Assembly: GCF_003004785.1 (NCBI RefSeq)
Contig: NZ_PVZS01000008.1
Coordinates: forward strand, 1-64,000
Length of the DNA stretch: 64,000 nt
Direction of reading: 5' to 3'
Origin: Alsobacter soli
GTDB taxonomy: Bacteria; Pseudomonadota; Alphaproteobacteria; Rhizobiales; Beijerinckiaceae
Both the position numbers and the translations under genes were made by a program. The notes under the pieces are model-generated. The model was given only the letters and a program-made list of their open reading frames with translations, was not told the origin of the DNA and ran no database searches. Position 1 is the stretch's first letter; each line of letters begins with the position of its first letter. Below are positions 6,588-15,943 of this stretch, piece by piece.

Positions 6588-7865
6588 TCAAGCGCTGACG
6601 GCAGCCGGCGAGCGCGAGGCGGCCCGCTCCCGGCTCGCCACGATCGCGAGGCCCCACAGGATCCCCATCAGCATCCAGAAATGCCGCCAGTGGTCGGTGT
6701 CGATCTGGAAGCCCTGCAGGATCTGCGGGAACAGGCAGGACCAGACCGCGATGGCGTCGCTCTGGACCCGCGTCCGCTGGAACACCAGCCGCCAGCCGAT
6801 GGCGCAGGTGACCAGGATGATCGCCAGGTAGGAGATCCCGCCCAGCCAGCCGTAGGAGCTGAAGGCGAAGATGAAGACGTTGTGCGGGTTCTCGCCGAAG
6901 CGCTTGTCGAACTGCAGCGGGCCGAAGCCGTTCGGCAGGTCGAGCAGCATCGGGATCGAGCGCCGCTGGTTGCCGAAGCGGCCCGTCTCGCCTTGGTCGT
7001 AGCTCTGCAGGAGGACGCTGCGCTCCTCCACCATCTTGCCGATGGTCGGCACGGAGAGCGCCCCCAGGCCCGCGGCGACGACGCCGGCCAATCCGACCGC
7101 CGCCACGATGGCGATGCGCCGCCGCTGCGCCCAGCTCCGGGAGGTCAGCAGGTTCAGGCCCACCACCAGGATCAGGCTCAGCGCGTAGACGCCCCAGGCA
7201 CCGCGGGAGAAGGAGATCAGCACCGCGAAGCTCAGCAGCCCGAGCGTGAGCAGGCTCACCCAGAGGCGCCGGGCGCGCCCGCACACCACCGCGTGGAACA
7301 GGAAGGTGGCCGCAACCGTCAGGAACGGCCCGAACACGTTCGGATCCTTGAACGGCCCGGACGCGCGGCTCCCGCCGAACTGGGTGAACACCGCGGAGAG
7401 CCCGGCCACGTTGAAGTAGCCCAGGACGCCCGCGACCGCCGCGAGCACGGCCGCCACGATTTGCGCCCGCTGGATCACGCGCAGGCGCGCCTCCGTGTGG
7501 TCCAGCATCAGCATGACGAAGAACATCGTCACGAACAGCAGGTAGAACGAGATCGCCACGAAGGTGATCGCCTTCGGGTCGTGCGTGAACTCGACGAGCG
7601 AGATCGCGCCGCCCAGGTTGAAGGCGGTCATCAGGCCCAGATAGGGCAGGGATTCGCGCGGCAGCTTCAGCCCCGTCGCCAGGAAGGCGAGGGCGGCCAG
7701 CACGAAGACGATCTCGAAGGGCGACGGCTCGATGAAGACGATGCAGCCCGAGAACACGAGCAGCCAGAGGATGCCGTTCTGCAGCGCCCGGACGGGGATC
7801 CCCCGCGCGGTCTGCGGGCGGACCAGGTCCGACCCGCCGGCGGCGGTCGCGGCCCCCAGGCTCAA
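6588..7865 (-). CDS. O-antigen ligase/polymerase-like membrane protein
   Basis: About 425 residues with ten or more hydrophobic helices, of the Wzy/WaaL (Wzy_C) superfamily. The large periplasmic loop carries RFGENPHNVF, the PHN motif typical of the family, and SRGAWG lies in the preceding helix. It would polymerise lipid-linked repeat units or ligate a chain; HfsC of Caulobacter is the same kind of protein. The open frame extends much further upstream, but that part overlaps the sugar-transferase gene. I place the start at TTG 7865, which overlaps the preceding TGA (TTGA) and suggests translational coupling. There is no ATG near; a GTG further in would cut the first helix. Confidence 0.82.
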   Translation of the reverse strand: MSLGAATAAGGSDLVRPQTARGIPVRALQNGILWLLVFSGCIVFIEPSPFEIVFVLAALAFLATGLKLPRESLPYLGLMTAFNLGGAISLVEFTHDPKAITFVAISFYLLFVTMFFVMLMLDHTEARLRVIQRAQIVAAVLAAVAGVLGYFNVAGLSAVFTQFGGSRASGPFKDPNVFGPFLTVAATFLFHAVVCGRARRLWVSLLTLGLLSFAVLISFSRGAWGVYALSLILVVGLNLLTSRSWAQRRRIAIVAAVGLAGVVAAGLGALSVPTIGKMVEERSVLLQSYDQGETGRFGNQRRSIPMLLDLPNGFGPLQFDKRFGENPHNVFIFAFSSYGWLGGISYLAIILVTCAIGWRLVFQRTRVQSDAIAVWSCLFPQILQGFQIDTDHWRHFWMLMGILWGLAIVASRERAASRSPAAVSA

Positions 7866-9394
7866 TACGCGTTCTCCGTCTTGGCGAGCGCGAAGGGCGT
7901 CGCCAGCAGGATGTAGAGGTCGAAGAACACGGACCAGTTCTCGATGTAGTAGAGGTCGTGCTCGACGCGCTTCTGGATCTTCTCGAAGGTGTCGGTCTCG
8001 CCGCGCCAGCCCTTGATCTGGGCCCAGCCGGTGATGCCGGGCTTCACCCGGTGCCGGGCGAAGTAGCCGTCGATGATGGCGTCGTAGCGCTGGTTCTCGG
8101 CGCTGGCGTTCACCGCGTGGGGGCGGGGGCCGACCAGCGACAGGTCGCCCTTGAGCACCACGTTGATGAGCTGGGGCAGCTCGTCCAGCGAGGTCTTGCG
8201 GATGAAGCGGCCGACGCGGGTCACCCGCGGGTCGCCCTTTGTCACCAGCCTGGACGCGGTGGCGTCCGACTGCTCGACATACATCGAGCGGAACTTGAAG
8301 ACCTCGATCAGCTCGTTGTTGAACCCGTACCGGCGCTGGCGGAAGAACACCGGCCCCGGCGAATCGAGCTTCACCGCCAACGCGGTGAGCAGCATCACGG
8401 GCGCGAGCGCCAGGAGCAGCAGGCCACCGACGATCCGGTCGAACAGCCACTTGAACACCACGTCCCAGTCGGCGATGGGCCGGTCGGTGACGGCCAGCAC
8501 CGGGACGGAGCCGATATACGAGTACGAGCGCGGCCGCAGGCGCAGCTTGCTCTGATGGGCCGAGAGGCGGATGTCCACCGGCAGCACCCACAGCTTGCGC
8601 AGCATGCTCAGGATGCGGTCTTCCGCCGTGATCGGGAGGGTGAAGATGACGAGATCGAGCTTCGCGCGGCGCACGAAGTCGACGAGGTCGTCCGTGGAGC
8701 CGAGCTTGGGATAGCCGGCCACGCTCTCGGGCGAGCGCTGCTCGTCCCGGTCGTCGAACACGCCCAGCACGCGCACCTCGGAATCGGCCTGCGCGTCGAG
8801 GGTGCGCAGCAGGCTCTCGGCGGCGGGGCCGCCGCCCACGATGGCCGTGCGGCGGTCGAGCAACCCGTCGCGCAGCATGCGCTTGACGACCAGGCGCACG
8901 CCGAGCCGCGACAGCAGGAGCGCGAGGAGGCCGTAGAGATACCAGGCTCCGAACCAGAAGCGGGAGATCTGGTCCCCCAGCTTGAACGCGAAGGCGAGCG
9001 CCAGGCCCACGAGGCATACCCCGGACCAGGCCGCCAGCACGCTCATGACGCGCGAGACTGCGCCCCGCAGGCTGGCGAGGTCATAGGCGTGGAGGTATTG
9101 CAGGGCCACCACCAGGCCCAGGGCGGAGCCGATCACCAGGGCGGCGTAGGGCGCGTCCGGCGCCAGGCCCGTCCGCAGGTACGCGGAGCGGAGCAGCAGG
9201 CCGCCGCCCACGAGAAGGATGAACTCGGTCAGTCCCACCAGTCCGGACAGGATGGTGGCGGACATGGCGGACCGGCGGGGATGGGACGCGATCGACTCGG
9301 CGACCGCGCTCATGGGCCGGCGGGGGCCCGGTCGCGGCGCCGCGGCGAGCCCGGCGTCGTGCCGCAAGAGATCGTCGATCCCGAGTTTCGCCAT
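7862..9394 (-). CDS. Undecaprenyl-phosphate sugar phosphotransferase
   Basis: 510-residue initiating enzyme of polysaccharide synthesis (WcaJ/HfsE type), which moves a sugar-1-phosphate from a UDP-sugar to undecaprenyl phosphate. The N-terminal half has about four membrane helices and a Rossmann-like domain with VGGGPAAESLL (about 170-180). The C-terminal third is the bacterial sugar transferase domain: DSPGPVFFRQRRYGFN, FKFRSM, and KTSLDELPQLINVLKGD-like and LVGPRP motifs. Usual length for the long, multi-helix class. It is followed directly by the Wzy-like gene (overlapping) and preceded by a GT4 gene 78 bases away. Which sugar is used cannot be told. Confidence 0.92.
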   Translation of the reverse strand: MAKLGIDDLLRHDAGLAAAPRPGPRRPMSAVAESIASHPRRSAMSATILSGLVGLTEFILLVGGGLLLRSAYLRTGLAPDAPYAALVIGSALGLVVALQYLHAYDLASLRGAVSRVMSVLAAWSGVCLVGLALAFAFKLGDQISRFWFGAWYLYGLLALLLSRLGVRLVVKRMLRDGLLDRRTAIVGGGPAAESLLRTLDAQADSEVRVLGVFDDRDEQRSPESVAGYPKLGSTDDLVDFVRRAKLDLVIFTLPITAEDRILSMLRKLWVLPVDIRLSAHQSKLRLRPRSYSYIGSVPVLAVTDRPIADWDVVFKWLFDRIVGGLLLLALAPVMLLTALAVKLDSPGPVFFRQRRYGFNNELIEVFKFRSMYVEQSDATASRLVTKGDPRVTRVGRFIRKTSLDELPQLINVVLKGDLSLVGPRPHAVNASAENQRYDAIIDGYFARHRVKPGITGWAQIKGWRGETDTFEKIQKRVEHDLYYIENWSVFFDLYILLATPFALAKTENAY

Positions 9395-9472: not shown

Positions 9473-10600
9473 TTAAACCCGGGCCAGCGCCTTGCGGTAC
9501 GCGGCCTCGACGCCCGTCGCCATGGCCTCGATGGAGAAAGACTGCTCCACATGCCGCGCCAGGGCGGCGGCTTCGGCCATCCGCTCGTCATCGGACTTGA
9601 GCAGCATGGCCTCGATGGCCGCGGCGAGCGCGCCGGGGTCGTCCGGCGCGATCAGGCGGTCGCGATGCGGCCCCAGGATCTCCGGAACGCCGCCGACCCG
9701 CGTCGCCACCAAGGGCCGGTGGGCGGCCGCAGCCTCGATGACCACATAGGGCAGGGACTCGGCGCGGGACGGAACGGCCATGAGGCGACCCAGCCGGAAG
9801 GCCTGCCGAGCCGGCATGGGCGGGCGGAAGGAGACGGCCCGCAATTCGAGCCGCTGGACCTGGGCCCGGTAGGAGGCCTCGTCCGGTCCGGCGCCGACGA
9901 GAAGGGCCGAGGGCTCCCAGGGCAGCCTCGCCCGCAGCAGGGAGAGCGCGTCGAGCAGGGTGTCCACGCCCTTGAGGCGCCTGAACTCTCCCAGGAAAAG
10001 CACGTCGGCCGCGTCCGGGTCCTCGCCGACGGGCTCGAATTCGAATTCGGCAAGGCCGTTGCGCACCACGGTCGCGGCGTGCGGAGCGTCGCCGAGCATG
10101 GCCTCGAAGCGCTCCGCGACGAACTCGCTTTCGAAGGTGAATACGGAGGTACGCTGGGCCAGGGCGCGTTCGATCAACGTGTAGGCCCTGCCGGCCAGGC
10201 TGTCGGGTCCATAATGCGCGCTGCCGCCGTGCGGCGTGTAGATGCGGCCGACGCGCCGCCATCCGGCCGGGGCGAGGCGGCCATAGAAGCCGCCCTTGGC
10301 GCCATGGCCGTGCACGATGTCCGGCCGGGCGCGGAGGACGATGCGGCCCACCCGGGCGAGGGCGACCGCGTCGCCTGGCCCCGGTTCTCGAGGCATCGCG
10401 ACGCGATGCAGTCCCAGGGCGAGCAGCGGCGAAAGCCGCCCGAGCGCCTCGTCCGCCCGGGGCGAGCCGCCGCTGTCGCAGATGATCCCCACGGCGTGCC
10501 CCGTCCGGGCCTGCGCCTCGGACAGGTCGAGCACATGCCGGAACAGCCCGCCCATCGGGGCGCGGAACACATGGACGATCCGGAGCGGAGCCTGGGCCAT
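9473..10600 (-). CDS. GT4-family glycosyltransferase
   Basis: About 375 residues, GT-B fold. The N-terminus IVHVFRAPMGGLFRHVLDLS is the usual acceptor-domain start with a glycine-rich loop; the C-terminal half has SRAESLPYVVIEAAAA, the E-x7-E-like donor site, and VGGVPEIL. It probably extends the lipid-linked oligosaccharide started by the adjacent phosphotransferase. ATG 10600 is preferred; a GTG at 10618 in the same frame would overlap the stop of the upstream export gene and give six more residues. Sugar specificity unknown. Confidence 0.87.
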   Translation of the reverse strand: MAQAPLRIVHVFRAPMGGLFRHVLDLSEAQARTGHAVGIICDSGGSPRADEALGRLSPLLALGLHRVAMPREPGPGDAVALARVGRIVLRARPDIVHGHGAKGGFYGRLAPAGWRRVGRIYTPHGGSAHYGPDSLAGRAYTLIERALAQRTSVFTFESEFVAERFEAMLGDAPHAATVVRNGLAEFEFEPVGEDPDAADVLFLGEFRRLKGVDTLLDALSLLRARLPWEPSALLVGAGPDEASYRAQVQRLELRAVSFRPPMPARQAFRLGRLMAVPSRAESLPYVVIEAAAAHRPLVATRVGGVPEILGPHRDRLIAPDDPGALAAAIEAMLLKSDDERMAEAAALARHVEQSFSIEAMATGVEAAYRKALARV

Positions 10601-10608
10601 CCGGGCGC

Positions 10609-11166
10609 TTAGAACCACCGCTCGCGCACCATGATGGTGTCGCCGGGGCGGACCGGGAATGTCACGGGCACCGTGCCGGTGACCAGCCGTCCGCCGATCT
10701 GGCGGGTGATGTCGGCCTGGGTGCGCAGGGCCCGGGGCGAGAACCCGCCGGCGATGGCCACTGCGGTTTGCACCGTCATGGCGTTCACGAAGGGGTACTG
10801 GCCGGCCGTGGTGACCTCGCCGAGGATGAAGAAGGGGCGGTACTGCTCGACTTCCACCGACACGCGGGGTTCCCGCAGGAAGCCGTTGCGAAGTTTCGCT
10901 TCGATGGCGCGTTCGAGCTGGGGGGTGGTGAGCCCGCCCGCCTGCACCGGCCCGATCAAGGGCAGCGAGACCCGTCCGGAGCCGTCCACGGCGTAGCTGT
11001 TGGACAGGTTGTCCTGGCCGAACACGATGATGCGCAGGCGATCGCCGCTCGCCAGGGTGTAGGGCGCGTCCAGACCCTCGGCGAAACCTGCCGGAGGCGC
11101 GGCCTGCGGGGCGCAGCCGGCGAGAGCGGCGGCTCCGAGAAGGACGAGGAACTGGCGACGCGACAT
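10609..11166 (-). CDS. Wza-like polysaccharide export lipoprotein
   Basis: 185 residues. The N-terminus has an arginine pair, a hydrophobic stretch and a lipobox LAGC, so it is probably an outer-membrane lipoprotein. Residues about 35-115 are the Poly_export domain (YTLASGDRLRIIVFGQDNLS), followed by one SLBB domain (FFILGEVTTAGQYPFV). Short export proteins of this type (HfsD, GumB) form the outer-membrane channel. It is divergent from the Wzz/GumC gene, its usual inner-membrane partner, across 152 bases, and is followed by the glycosyltransferase 8 bases downstream. Confidence 0.9.
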   Translation of the reverse strand: MSRRQFLVLLGAAALAGCAPQAAPPAGFAEGLDAPYTLASGDRLRIIVFGQDNLSNSYAVDGSGRVSLPLIGPVQAGGLTTPQLERAIEAKLRNGFLREPRVSVEVEQYRPFFILGEVTTAGQYPFVNAMTVQTAVAIAGGFSPRALRTQADITRQIGGRLVTGTVPVTFPVRPGDTIMVRERWF

Positions 11167-11318
11167 CGGGGACTCGCTGGGCAGGGCGGTCGACGGGCGA
11201 TGTTGTGCGTCCCTATGGTTAATAAAGCCTAAGGATTGGCGGTCGCGCGCTTAACCACATCGAAACTCAACGGTGACCATGATTTATCAATCGTTCAGTC
11301 GACGCGTGAGGTGGAGTG

Positions 11319-13547
11319 ATGGCGTACGCCGGGCCCGGACAAGCCGCAGGCGGCGACCTGGACGCCGGACAGATCTGGCGGGCGCTGAAGCGTCGCAGCG
11401 CCTGGATCGTCCTGCCGGTGATGATCGCCTGTGGCGGCTCCGCCTTTTTCGTCACCACGGCGACGCCGCGCTATACGGCCGACGCCCGGGTGCTTCTCCA
11501 GCCGGGCGACAACTACTACACGCGGCCGGGCTCCACCCCGGAGCGTGACTCCCAGATCCAGATCGACGAGCGCGAGGCCGCCAGCCAGGTGCTGGTGATC
11601 TCCTCGCGCGACCTCGCCAAGCGCGCCGTCGATCGCCTGGGTCTCCAGGGCAATCCCGAGTTCGACAGGAGCGCCTCGCTGTTCGGCGCGGCGACCAACC
11701 TTCTGGCTTCCCTGGGGCTGGTGCGCGCGAACGACTCCGAGCGGCTGATCGACCGCTTCGTGGAGCGCGTCACTGCTTTCCCGGTGGGCCAGTCTCGCGT
11801 GATCGCCATCGAATTCACGTCGCAAGATCCGGACCTTGCCGCCCGCGGCGCCAACACGGTCGCGGACATCTACTTGGAGATGCAGGAAGAGGCCAAGCAG
11901 CGCATCGCGCGCTCCGCGAGCAGCTGGCTCAACGGCGCCATCGAGCCCCTGCGCCAGAAGGTGGCCGACGCCGAGGCCAAGGTGGAGGCGTTCCGCGCCC
12001 AGGCCGGCATCATCATCGCCACCAACAACGCCACCCTCCAGCAGCAGCAGCTGGCCGAGCTGAGCACGCAGCTCAATCAGGTGCGGGCCGCCCAGGCTGA
12101 CGCCCAGGCCAAGGCCAAGCTCCTGCGCGAAGCGCTGGCCAGCGGGCGCACGCTCGATATCTCCGAGGTGGCCAACAACGAGCTCGTGCGCAAGCTCGTG
12201 GCGGATCGCACCACGGCCAAGGCGCAGCTCGCGCTCGAGTCGCGTTCGCTGCTGCCCGGACATCCGCGAATCAAGGAGCTGCAGGCGCAGCTCGCCGACA
12301 TCGACGCCCAGATCACGGCGGCCGCCAGCAAGGCGGTGCGCACGCTGGAGAACGACGCCCGCATCGCAGCCGGGCGGGTCGACGCGCTGGCCGCCGCCCT
12401 GGAGGCGACCAAGCAGCAGAGCATCGCCGCCGGCGAGAAGGAAGTGGAGCTGCGGGCCCTGGAGCGCGAGGCCAAGTCCCAGCGCGAGCAGCTCGAGGCC
12501 ATGATGACCCGCTACCGCGAGGCCAGCGCGCGGGAGTCGAAGGAGGCGACCCCGCCGGACGCGCGCATCGTGCAGCGCGCCGATCCGCCGGTCTTCCCGT
12601 CCTTCCCCAAGAAGCTGCCCACCATCATCATCGCCACGCTGGCGACCTTCCTGGTCACCACGGTGGGCGTGGTGACGGCCGAGTTGCTGTCCGGGCGCGC
12701 CTTCACGGCCCCGGCCGCGCCTGCTCCCGCAGCCGAGCCGCTTGGCCGCGCCGTGGCCCGCGCCGACGAGGACCTGGGCTGGCAGCCGAAGCCACGCCGG
12801 AACCGGGAAGCCAAGTGGGAGCCGGATCCGGAGCCCGTCCCCCCCTCGGCTGCCCCTGTCGAGTCGGCCTTCGCCCGGGCTGTGGCGGCCGCCGAAGCCG
12901 CAGACCGCGACGACCTGGTTGCGCCGAAGGCGGCGCTGGCCGGAGAGGCCTCGGCCTCTGCGGTCGCCTGCCAGCAGGTGCAGGTCAGCGACCTGGCCCG
13001 CGAGGTCGAACTTGCGGCCCACGCGGCCTCGCCGTTCCGGTGCGTCTTCGTCCCAACGGCGGGCGCCTCGGCGCGCGACGCCGCGCTGACCGTCGGACGC
13101 AGCCTCTCGCGCACGCGGCGCGTTGTCCTGGTGGACGGCGACGCCACGTCCCAGGCGCGGGCCGGCGCAGGTTTCGCCGAGCTGGTCGCCGGGCAGGCGT
13201 CCTTCGTCCAGGTGATCCACCGTGACCCCGCGTCCCGGCTCCACCTGGTTTCCGCCGGCGCCTTGGACGCTTCAGCGCTTGTGGATCAGGCGCAGGGCCT
13301 GGAGCTGGCGCTGGGGGCCCTGGGACAGACCTATGACGGCGTTCTGGTCGCCGGGCCCTATCCCCGTGACGGCGCCCCCAGTCGCGATGCGCTCGAGGCG
13401 ATGCTGGGCAACGCCGAACTGGCCGTGATCGTCGCCGGGCCGGGTGGCGCGCCGGCCGAAGTCGACGAACTCGCTCGCCAGTTCAGCCATTCCGGCCTGC
13501 GGACCGCCTGGCTTTCCTGGTGGCAGGAGAAGGGCGTGGCGGCCTGA
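11319..13547 (+). CDS. Wzz/GumC polysaccharide co-polymerase, degenerate kinase domain
   Basis: 742 residues. Wzz domain at the N-terminus with a first membrane helix (about 28-48), long coiled-coil stretch (about 180-400, rich in A, E, Q, K), then PPVFPSFPKKLPT and a second helix near 430-455. This sets chain length and links polymerase to the export channel. From about 570 there is a BY-kinase-like domain, but where Walker A (GxxGxGK[ST]) should be it reads VPTAGASARDAALT, with no lysine; the Walker A' strand VVLVDGDAT is kept. No tyrosine cluster follows. It is therefore probably a non-catalytic kinase relic. ATG 11319 follows GAGGTGGA; a GTG lies one codon earlier. Confidence 0.88.
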   Translation: MAYAGPGQAAGGDLDAGQIWRALKRRSAWIVLPVMIACGGSAFFVTTATPRYTADARVLLQPGDNYYTRPGSTPERDSQIQIDEREAASQVLVISSRDLAKRAVDRLGLQGNPEFDRSASLFGAATNLLASLGLVRANDSERLIDRFVERVTAFPVGQSRVIAIEFTSQDPDLAARGANTVADIYLEMQEEAKQRIARSASSWLNGAIEPLRQKVADAEAKVEAFRAQAGIIIATNNATLQQQQLAELSTQLNQVRAAQADAQAKAKLLREALASGRTLDISEVANNELVRKLVADRTTAKAQLALESRSLLPGHPRIKELQAQLADIDAQITAAASKAVRTLENDARIAAGRVDALAAALEATKQQSIAAGEKEVELRALEREAKSQREQLEAMMTRYREASARESKEATPPDARIVQRADPPVFPSFPKKLPTIIIATLATFLVTTVGVVTAELLSGRAFTAPAAPAPAAEPLGRAVARADEDLGWQPKPRRNREAKWEPDPEPVPPSAAPVESAFARAVAAAEAADRDDLVAPKAALAGEASASAVACQQVQVSDLAREVELAAHAASPFRCVFVPTAGASARDAALTVGRSLSRTRRVVLVDGDATSQARAGAGFAELVAGQASFVQVIHRDPASRLHLVSAGALDASALVDQAQGLELALGALGQTYDGVLVAGPYPRDGAPSRDALEAMLGNAELAVIVAGPGGAPAEVDELARQFSHSGLRTAWLSWWQEKGVAA

Positions 13548-13571: not shown

Positions 13572-14777
13572 TCAGAAGCTGCTCACGAGCCGGAACGCTC
13601 TCCGCACGGTGCGCAGGACGCGGTCGTCGCGCTTCACCAGCTGCTTCACGCGCCCGGCGCCGCGCAGCGCGAAGGCGACCGCGTGCCCGAGCGGGGTGAC
13701 CGGCGTGATCACGTCCACCCGCCGCTCCTGCTCCGGGCATACGTGCCGCTTGTAGCCCTCGTCCCCCATGCCGAGGTCGAATTCCGCCAGACCGCGGCTC
13801 AGGGCCGCCTGCGCCAGCTCCATCGTCAGCAACTCGCCGGGGCTCGATCGCATCAGGGCCGGGTCGGGCTCGAACGAGATGAAGGTTCCGCTGAGCCGGC
13901 GCCCGTCGCTGCAGCCGCCGAAAGTGGCCGCGATCCGGTCCCCGCAGCGAAGAGCGTAGAGCTCCAGGGCCGGGCGGCCCTGCCCGAGGCCCGACAGGGC
14001 GGCACGCCGGAGGAAATCCTGGGTCGCCGGGCACGCGAACGGGTTGCCCATGCCCCGCTCGGCGAAGCGGGCGGCGCGCTGGCGGAAAAAGGCCTCGAGG
14101 ATCTCTTTCGCCTCAGCCGCGGTTTGCGCCCTGTGCAGCGCGGTGGGGCCGATCTCCTGGAGCCAGCGCTTCTTTTTCGCCAGCTTCTTGCGACTGTCCT
14201 TGCCGAGAAGGCGTCGCGCGAGCGCGTCCGGGCTTTCTCCGGCCTGGAGCGTCAGCGCGAAGGCTTGCTCCGCCTCACGGGCCCCGCCCAGGCAGGCGAG
14301 CGGATTGGCGAAACCTGCCCAGGCGACGGGCTGGGACCGCAGGTCGAAAGCGTCGACGCCAGGCAGGCTCTCTCCCATCGCGAACAGGAGGGCTGCGGCC
14401 CGTGTCGAGTCGAGGCGCGGGGCGAAGTCGGCCGCGTACACGCCCATGTTGGCGTTGCAGTGCTTCCCACCAGCGAAACGCGCCACCCTGGCGGGGCCGC
14501 TCGAATCGATCACCAGCGGAAACAGGGCTGCCGGACTGTCGCCAGGTCCATGAATCGTGACGATGGCCGGCTGCAGTCGACGCGCCTGGCCCACGGTCTC
14601 GTACCAGGCCGCGAGCCAGTCGTAACGCTGGTACGGGGTGCAAAGGCCTGTGGCCTCGAGCGCGCGCCACTCCGCCTCCGCGCGTCGCGGAAGGCTGTGG
14701 ACCGCGATGCGGGTCCAGTCTGGGGACATGGCCAGGGCGGCGGACATGAGGCTCCTGCGTCGGCTGCTGGCGGACAT
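13572..14777 (-). CDS. CelD/BioF2-type GNAT acyltransferase
   Basis: 401 residues of the GNAT-like family often called cellulose-biosynthesis CelD (Acetyltransf_6). Visible marks are the early PYQRYDWLAAWYETVG, the central FFRQRAARF region, and the late GLAEFDLGMGDEGYKR, which is the family's CoA-domain end. In Caulobacter a protein of this family (HfsK) modifies the holdfast polysaccharide; rhizobial relatives act on exopolysaccharide. Substrate here is inference from location. It converges with the co-polymerase gene (24 bases between) and is divergent from the deacetylase across a region holding a CtrA box. Start could be the ATG at 14777 or an internal one at codon 11. Confidence 0.85.
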   Translation of the reverse strand: MSASSRRRSLMSAALAMSPDWTRIAVHSLPRRAEAEWRALEATGLCTPYQRYDWLAAWYETVGQARRLQPAIVTIHGPGDSPAALFPLVIDSSGPARVARFAGGKHCNANMGVYAADFAPRLDSTRAAALLFAMGESLPGVDAFDLRSQPVAWAGFANPLACLGGAREAEQAFALTLQAGESPDALARRLLGKDSRKKLAKKKRWLQEIGPTALHRAQTAAEAKEILEAFFRQRAARFAERGMGNPFACPATQDFLRRAALSGLGQGRPALELYALRCGDRIAATFGGCSDGRRLSGTFISFEPDPALMRSSPGELLTMELAQAALSRGLAEFDLGMGDEGYKRHVCPEQERRVDVITPVTPLGHAVAFALRGAGRVKQLVKRDDRVLRTVRRAFRLVSSF

Positions 14778-14811
14778 TCGCCGCAGCCATGCGGGATGGT
14801 CAACGAAAGCT

Positions 14812-14827
14812 TTAAGCCAAGCTTAAC
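14812..14827 (+). promoter_or_regulatory. CtrA box TTAA-N7-TTAAC
   Basis: TTAAGCCAAGCTTAAC matches the full CtrA consensus exactly. It lies 35 bases upstream of the acyltransferase start (14777, minus) and 64 bases upstream of the deacetylase start (14891, plus). CtrA is the alphaproteobacterial cell-cycle regulator. A perfect match is rare in DNA this GC-rich. Confidence 0.6.
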
Positions 14828-14890
14828 GCGGGACCGGTAAAGATTTTGACCAGCAGCGAACGCTAAGTCGCTCGTAACCGGATAATCTAC

Positions 14891-15943
14891 TTGGGGTTGA
14901 AGCATCAGGTTTTCGCTCACGCGCTCACGGTGCTGGGGCGATTGGGCGTCGCGCGGCGGACAGGACCCCGCCTGCGCGGTCTGGGCGCCATCCTCATGCT
15001 TCACCATGTCCGCCCCTGGATGGAGCGGGCCTACGCGCCCAACCGGCTCCTGGAGGTGACGCCCGCATTCCTGGACCAGGCGCTGGCGCACGCCGCCGAA
15101 CTCGGATTCCGCTTCGTCACGCTGGACGAGGCGGTCGACCGGGTCGAGCGGGGCGGGGAGGGCGCGCCGGTGCTGGCGATCACCTTCGACGACGGCTATC
15201 GGGACAACTTGGAGTATGCGCTGCCGGTGCTGCGCCGCCACGGCGCACCCGCGACGGTGTTCGTCACGCCGGGATTCGCCGAGCGGCAGGTCGGCCTGTG
15301 GTGGTGCGACCTGGAGGGCGCGATCGGCCGGGCCGACCGCGTGCGGCTGTCGATCGGTGAAGAGCGCTTCGATCTGCCGGCAGGCGCAGCGGTTGAGAAG
15401 AGCGCCGCATTCGAAACCCTGTACTGGCGTCTGCGGGGGCTTCCCGAAGGGGAGATGCTCGCCGTCATCGGCCGGCTCGCGGCCGAGCAGGGGATCGACA
15501 GCCTGGCCACGACCGAACGGCTGTGCCTGGACTGGGACGGCCTGCGCCGCCTGGCCGCCGATCCGCTAATCGCGGTGGGCGCGCACACGATGACGCATCC
15601 GATGCTCGCCAAGCACGACGCCGCGGTCGCGCGAGCCGAGATCGCAGAGTCCAGGGCCGCCATCGAGCGCGAGCTCGGCCAGGCTGTGCGGCATCTGGCC
15701 TACCCGGTGGGGGATCCGACCTCGGCAGGGCCGCGCGAATTCGCCATGGCCCGCGAGCTTGGCTTCCGCAGCGCGGTGACGACCCGTCCGGGCATGCTCT
15801 TTCCGGAGCATGCCGGCGCCCTGACGGCGCTGCCGCGCCTGTCCGTGAACGGCCTGTTCCAGAACGTCGGGCAGTTCGAGGCCCTGCTGAGCGGCGTCCC
15901 CTTCTGGCTCTGGAATCGCGGCCGACGCCTCAACGTGGCCTGA
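14891..15943 (+). CDS. Polysaccharide deacetylase (NodB fold, CE4)
   Basis: About 350 residues. CE4 motif 1 is AITFDDGY with the catalytic and metal aspartates at about 100-101; motif 2 is GAHTMTHPML with the two metal-binding histidines. It would remove N-acetyl groups from amino sugars in the polymer, as HfsH does in holdfast. No clear signal peptide, although the N-terminus is mildly hydrophobic; relatives without a signal act in the cytoplasm on lipid-linked precursors. The start is unclear: TTG at 14891 or TTG at 14897; there is no early ATG in frame. It ends the polysaccharide locus. Confidence 0.87.
   Translation: MGLKHQVFAHALTVLGRLGVARRTGPRLRGLGAILMLHHVRPWMERAYAPNRLLEVTPAFLDQALAHAAELGFRFVTLDEAVDRVERGGEGAPVLAITFDDGYRDNLEYALPVLRRHGAPATVFVTPGFAERQVGLWWCDLEGAIGRADRVRLSIGEERFDLPAGAAVEKSAAFETLYWRLRGLPEGEMLAVIGRLAAEQGIDSLATTERLCLDWDGLRRLAADPLIAVGAHTMTHPMLAKHDAAVARAEIAESRAAIERELGQAVRHLAYPVGDPTSAGPREFAMARELGFRSAVTTRPGMLFPEHAGALTALPRLSVNGLFQNVGQFEALLSGVPFWLWNRGRRLNVA

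Follow-up and report, generated by a model that had tools for sequence, protein, structure and literature searches.

In Hyphomonas neptunium, 211 of 222 CtrA sites are intergenic (PMC7200025), and in Rhodobacter sphaeroides a single CtrA site activates the divergent fliF2p-fliL2p promoters (PMC6180460). For Agrobacterium tumefaciens, CtrA sites are also predicted at dgcB and in front of genes for succinoglycan (PMC7003649). In Caulobacter, HfsH and HfsK affect the cohesion and adhesiveness of the holdfast. Expression of hfsK is late predivisional, the level of HfsK protein hardly changes through the cell cycle, and CtrA is named once in the main text of the paper, as a fractionation control (PMC5362036). 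The words holdfast and hfs are in turn absent from the main text of two papers that describe CtrA sites (PMC4287350; PMC7200025). A literature search, covering mostly papers outside subscription, found no prior report of the site described below, and a search on UPP together with deacetylase returned nothing that seemed relevant by title.

A CtrA site at an acyltransferase/deacetylase promoter is predicted in Alsobacter soli, whose genome comprises 5,189,410 bases in 96 contigs. The window, meaning the whole stretch of 64,000 nucleotides that was analysed, carries a polysaccharide cluster in which an acyltransferase gene and a deacetylase gene diverge from a shared intergenic interval. The features referred to below are the following.

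6588 to 7861 (5' limit approximate), minus strand: Wzy_C / O-antigen-ligase-like membrane protein, by profile match
7862 to 9394, minus strand: undecaprenyl-phosphate sugar transferase that passes the cut-off of WcaJ and falls below that of HfsE
9473 to 10618, minus strand: family 4 glycosyltransferase, by profile match
10609 to 11166, minus strand: Poly_export/SLBB export protein, by profile match
11316 to 13547, plus strand: chain-length/export protein with a Wzz domain, belonging to this cluster, by profile match
13572 to 14747, minus strand: acyltransferase, Acetyltransf_6 (PF13480, E 2.6e-28), HfsK-like by family and context only
14796 to 14827, no strand: island of identity with Alsobacter metallidurans (30 of 32 bases, ungapped comparison), holding the CtrA box and a stretch to its left
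14799 to 14814, plus strand: window copy of an order-wide element, gCAAcgAA.g.TcAA (GTCAACGAAAGCTTTA), matrix rank 1, with a three-base overlap with the CtrA box
14812 to 14827, plus strand: perfect CtrA box TTAAGCCAAGCTTAAC, by pattern match, at the same place in A. metallidurans
14838 to 14844, plus strand: -10-like TAAAGAT, beginning 26 nt beyond the box's first base; A. metallidurans has TAACGAT equally far from its own box
14891 to 15943, plus strand: polysaccharide deacetylase, Polysacc_deac_1 (PF01522, E 7.1e-22), HfsH-like by family and context only

Read on the plus strand, the box agrees with TTAA-N7-TTAAC in each of the nine fixed positions, and its inner bases extend it to a 6-3-6 palindrome, TTAAGC-CAA-GCTTAA. 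It lies about 64 bp from each of the two start codons, the acyltransferase ATG at 14747 (set by comparison with A. metallidurans) and the deacetylase TTG at 14891 (set by comparison with orthologues). The first-pass annotation had described just such a box between two divergent polysaccharide-modifying genes and had held a match of this kind to be very rare in 64 kb. The setting is borne out by the profile matches, PF13480 on the minus strand and PF01522 on the plus strand, and the rarity by a single match to TTAA-N7-TTAAC in the window and by its occurrence in none of 100 dinucleotide-preserving shuffles. The divergent interval is AT-rich, with a GC content of 0.53 vs about 0.70 for the genome, and the shuffle p for this interval on its own is 0.0023. 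The related interval 11167-11318, said in the same annotation to hold only half-sites, indeed contains an isolated TTAA at 11219 and an isolated TTAAC at 11251, and no full TTAA-N7-TTAAC box.

The CtrA gene of A. soli lies at G000:C1:122564-123244, where G000 is the genome of the window. Its product is 82% identical to Caulobacter CtrA and scores 423.4 bits against the NCBIfam CtrA equivalog NF045991, above the cut-off of 350. The genome-wide scan for TTAA-N7-TTAAC that the first-pass annotation had proposed gave 19 strand matches vs one for the reversed pattern; these represent 15 distinct places, because near-palindromic sites are counted twice. Reversed patterns and altered spacing served as controls, and at spacing N8 the genome has no match (four for the reversed N8 pattern). 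Summed over four members of the genus, there are 75 strand matches at N7 (reversed 11) and three at N8 (reversed 19), and the contrast between N7 and its reversed pattern is clear within the genus. Among 59 genomes, N7 exceeds N8 in 57 (1308 vs 346). It outnumbers the reversed pattern in just 43 (1308 vs 1057), mostly because some relatives are rich in reversed matches. The broader pattern TYAA-N7-TYAAC has 39 strand matches in the A. soli genome, four of them TCAA-N7-TCAAC, vs nine for its reverse.

The genes beside the other A. soli boxes are as expected of a CtrA regulon. Cell-cycle and flagellar genes among them are minC, ftsK, a DUF1465 gene, flgI with fliX, and a flagellar rod gene with fliL; DUF1465 is the RcdA family. 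Further boxes adjoin rpoD and the genes for a GGDEF-EAL protein, an outer-membrane beta-barrel protein, a DUF900 hydrolase, a DUF2865 protein and PAPS reductase, and one lies at a kinase-pyrophosphorylase gene divergent from that for uroporphyrinogen decarboxylase. At loci L005 and L009 the box stands directly before ORFs of 369 and 152 aa without a Pfam match, which may be CtrA targets so far uncharacterised. For the box at L009, the boxes of A. metallidurans include no counterpart. Five of the 15 boxes (L002, L004, L011, L017 and L019) are directly preceded by TAnGG, giving TTAA-N7-TTAACCnTA on the other strand, and the box at 14812-14827 is without this extension.

The polysaccharide cluster appears holdfast-like in layout only. 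Its Acetyltransf_6 acyltransferase and polysaccharide deacetylase adjoin export and Wzy genes, a match at the level of families. The sugar transferase at 7862-9394 passes the broader WcaJ model and scores 338.8 bits against the HfsE equivalog NF050817, below the cut-off of 750, and it is for this reason that the resemblance is confined to layout. A second deacetylase in the same genome, at G000:C7:95929-96969 (L085, 7876-8976), is 65% identical to that of the window and lies outside the cluster, where it diverges from an ORF of 359 aa. Its contig has a single perfect CtrA box, about 46 kb from that gene.

We read the box, with a probability of roughly three in four, as a working CtrA site in the shared promoter of the HfsK-like acyltransferase and the HfsH-like deacetylase, one that would time the modification of the polymer by the cell cycle. 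The assignment of 14812-14827 as a predicted CtrA site is well supported, because the genome encodes an orthologous CtrA, N7 spacing is enriched, the target genes fit and the box lies within the island shared with A. metallidurans. That polymer modification would follow the cell cycle is plausible. Binding, the direction of regulation, its timing and its effect on the polymer are all points that we infer from sequence. A dimer of phosphorylated CtrA would bind TTAA-N7-TTAAC. For the deacetylase gene, the box would lie in the -35 region before TAA[AC]GAT and would confer activation where CtrA is active, in cells of the predivisional and swarmer types. Towards the acyltransferase gene, that dimer might either activate a mirror-image promoter or repress it. 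Both modifications of the polymer made by the cluster, deacetylation and acylation, would in this way be timed with the division cycle, alongside flagella, minC and ftsK.

On the deacetylase side, the -10-like motif would set the transcription start close to 14851, with the box spanning about -39 to -24. The recurrence of TAA[AC]GAT at a fixed distance in two species would put the box at the -35 position typical of activation. An activating full site is found at -39 in the P2 promoter of Caulobacter ctrA (PMC4287350). On the acyltransferase side, inspection by eye found no convincing -10. A sigma-70 reading of this side, with TTGACC on the minus strand, was set aside, its -10 partner being unconvincing by eye.

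CtrA might instead bind the box and repress one or both genes, which would then be off in swarmer-type cells and on once CtrA has been cleared. Repression has precedents: a CtrA half-site overlapping the -10 region represses some promoters (PMC4287350; PMC6180460), and the dgcB promoter of Agrobacterium is derepressed when TTAA is changed to AATT (PMC7003649), so repression by CtrA is conceivable here too, the more so where no clear -10 is seen, on the acyltransferase side. The deacetylase side points the other way, since in both species the TAA[AC]GAT motif stands 26 nt after the start of the box, which would be the -35 geometry of activation, and we consider repression unlikely.

The reading of the box as a CtrA site draws further on its conservation. 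The nearest named relative found was A. metallidurans (Hyphomicrobiales; G002), whose acyltransferase is 63% identical, and nearer records may have been left out. It carries a perfect box in the same place as 14812-14827. For twelve of the 15 A. soli boxes, this one included, the aligned locus of A. metallidurans carries a perfect box too, a count that compares only A. metallidurans loci with a perfect box, base-exact position having been inspected for 14812-14827 alone. The remaining three are unmatched by any of the A. metallidurans boxes. In contrast to the 30 identical bases of 32 in the island at 14796-14827, the flanks agree at 15 of 48 bases on the left and 18 of 63 on the right (ungapped). 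Conservation thus goes beyond the CtrA box and continues to its left. The second half-site, TTAAC, which lies beyond the order-wide element, is kept in A. metallidurans as well. One-mismatch boxes occur in the other two members of the genus, in G003 (TTCAACGGGTCTTAAC, shuffle p 0.0010) and in G001 (TTCAACGGGGTTTAAC, shuffle p 0.0023).

Thirty genomes provided an interval between a divergent acyltransferase/deacetylase pair, one region per genome after duplicate loci had been removed by hand, each of 127-425 bases including some N-terminal coding sequence; at least one more genome, G038, also has the pair and stands outside this set. The first-pass annotation had named absence of the box from the orthologous region of close relatives as refuting. 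Within the genus the box recurs, perfectly in A. metallidurans and with one mismatch in G001 and G003, but a perfect TTAA-N7-TTAAC is absent from all 26 more distant genomes in which this gene pair could be examined. Perfect boxes are thereby confined to two of the 30 intervals, those of the window's genome and of A. metallidurans, while G022, outside the genus, has a one-mismatch box. Allowing at most one mismatch, the CtrA box is found in five of the 30 intervals vs 0.34 expected from shuffles. The region upstream of the DUF1465 gene served as a yardstick (30 loci from 54 genomes with a match, one of them with only 80 bases upstream). There, a perfect box is present at nine of 30 loci (seven of 26 outside the genus) vs 0.04 expected, and a box with at most one mismatch at 22 of 30 vs 1.02 expected. 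Set against nine perfect boxes in 30 at this yardstick, two in 30 mark the perfect box of the acyltransferase/deacetylase promoter as a genus-level feature.

The less ordinary feature of this promoter is that its predicted CtrA box overlaps an operator-like element found across the order. An unsupervised motif search in the 30 divergent regions returned a CAA...TCAA repeat with a log-likelihood of 154.3 at width 24, and the same search in 12 Markov-shuffled sets reached at most 98.7; the null runs used 20 starts and 40 rounds and the real data 40 and 60, which gives the real data a slight advantage. A width-16 matrix, gCAAcgAA.g.TcAA, trained on 26 genomes with the genus excluded, puts 14799-14814 at the top of the 127,970 window positions scored over the two strands, with a lead of 3.5 bits, and 14811-14826 in fourth place, though the AT-rich interval favours this motif to some degree. 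The element is also present in intervals L025, L026, L030, L033, L034, L036, L040, L043, L044, L046 and L060. About 10 bp beyond it, inspection by eye shows a third unit, an inverted TTG(C/G)C, in several genera. At G002:C1:1546430-1546467, A. metallidurans has head-to-tail TCAACGG repeats with an 11-base step, which may be coding sequence or an operator array.

Spacing was compared in 28 genomes, the two with perfect boxes being set aside. The summed mismatch to TTAA-N7-TTAAC is 68 vs 94.8 +- 3.5 in shuffles, and for the TTAA spacings N5, N6, N8 and N9 it is 80, 77, 83 and 87 vs null means of 93.2-94.2. None of the five spacings exceeds the lowest of 60 shuffles, which shows the Markov shuffle null to be too lenient; N7 deviates most. 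For TCAA-N7-TCAAC the summed mismatch is 56 vs 76.1 +- 3.5, and the same repeat gives 73 vs 75.8 at N6 and 70 vs 76.5 at N8, the latter just under all 60 shuffles. TCAA-N7-TCAAC also exceeds its reversed pattern in 55 of the 59 genomes (908 vs 298), a count to which codon bias possibly contributes.

A search for the element in seven genomes, five of which were picked for a promoter resembling it, yielded 25 matches vs 12 for the reversed pattern. Four of the 25 are the acyltransferase/deacetylase promoter itself, eight lie inside ORFs according to rough gene finding, and the others occur in varied settings. No regulon for gCAAcgAA.g.TcAA was recognisable in these seven genomes, and for that reason no regulator is named. 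Rhodobacter CenR binds TGA-N8-TGA, an 11-bp direct repeat (PMC9275681). Both ChvI and CenR were considered as the element's regulator and neither was adopted, the CenR site being alike in form only. Also not retained was a CtrA matrix derived from DUF1465 upstream regions, which was not clean: width 16 led to GTTAACCTTAA and width 18 to another conserved stretch. When the 26 regions were scored with the DUF1465 matrix, five reached p < 0.05 (Fisher p 8.9e-5), vs two when read backwards (Fisher p 0.24). Conversely, the element's matrix, applied to 25 DUF1465 regions, gave a Fisher p of 0.00026. The two matrices thus do not separate cleanly, and since the DUF1465-derived matrix is not a clean CtrA matrix, this cross-scoring counts as weak evidence.

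Because the identity island extends left over the order-wide element, part of its conservation may belong to another factor. The conserved site might even be mainly that of another regulator, for example an OmpR-family protein such as CenR, recognising CAA/TCAA repeats spaced by 11 bp across the order, and the Alsobacter repeats would then have drifted to a TTAA look-alike of a CtrA site. The strength of the CAA...TCAA repeat over shuffled sets, the first and fourth ranks that a genus-free matrix gives to 14799-14814 and 14811-14826, and the low summed mismatch to TCAA-N7-TCAAC across 28 genomes would all fit, and the CenR site of Rhodobacter likewise repeats directly with an 11-bp step (PMC9275681). 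This account is harder to reconcile with a box that fits all nine CtrA positions, with a genome in which N7 prevails over N8 by 19 to 0 and boxes stand at classical CtrA targets, and with the retention of the TTAAC half outside the element. The search in seven genomes, with four of its 25 matches at the promoter itself, also provided the element with no regulon, and the shuffles ignore local AT-rich patches, so that all spacings look somewhat enriched. We regard this alternative as quite improbable. A functionless chance match in an AT-rich stretch, for which the GC content of the interval and the three A. soli boxes without an A. metallidurans counterpart might be cited, is highly improbable given the shuffle p of 0.0023 for this interval alone and the 30 of 32 bases kept between nearly randomised flanks.

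On the best reading, the box is probably a true CtrA site at the level of the genus, set alongside an older operator. More tentatively, it is possible, on balance doubtful, that CtrA captured an ancient order-wide operator in the Alsobacter lineage, in which case the overlapping factors would compete and polymer modification would have been rewired from another signal, such as envelope state, to the cell cycle. If this capture took place, the four members of the genus, two with perfect and two with one-mismatch boxes, would represent its stages and would make regulon capture directly testable. A direct CtrA site acting on both genes would tie the chemistry of a polymer, beyond its synthesis, to the division cycle in Hyphomicrobiales, and the overlapping order-wide element would offer a concrete promoter for studying how CtrA gains targets.

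The full sites of Caulobacter crescentus (PMC4287350) and Hyphomonas neptunium (PMC7200025), TTAA-N7-TTAA, have the same consensus and spacing as the box of the window. Activating sites in Caulobacter lie at a -35-like position, as is predicted for this box, and the CtrA-motif passage of the same paper names rcdA, ftsK and flagellar genes, as are found beside the boxes of A. soli (PMC4287350). The target pair itself, a polysaccharide acyltransferase and a deacetylase, is unlike the Caulobacter and Hyphomonas targets described in these sources (PMC4287350; PMC7200025). The fliF2p-fliL2p promoters of Rhodobacter likewise have one CtrA box between divergent genes, but those genes are flagellar, and the Alsobacter pair has a plausible -10 in one direction only (PMC6180460). 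In Agrobacterium tumefaciens, a member of the same order, CtrA boxes are predicted upstream of adhesion-related and polysaccharide genes, although the target genes are others (PMC7003649).

The 11-bp repeat of the order-wide element resembles OmpR-family operators such as that of CenR in form. TGA-N8-TGA can be seen by eye on the minus strand in some other genera (for example L040 and L044), whereas the comparable repeat of the window has a 12-bp step. A functional parallel is the Caulobacter holdfast, where a GNAT-type acyltransferase, HfsK, and a deacetylase, HfsH, serve one exported polymer, a likeness that the window shares by family only (PMC5362036). Unlike HfsK and HfsH of Caulobacter, the acyltransferase and deacetylase of Alsobacter are divergent neighbours beside export genes (PMC5362036).
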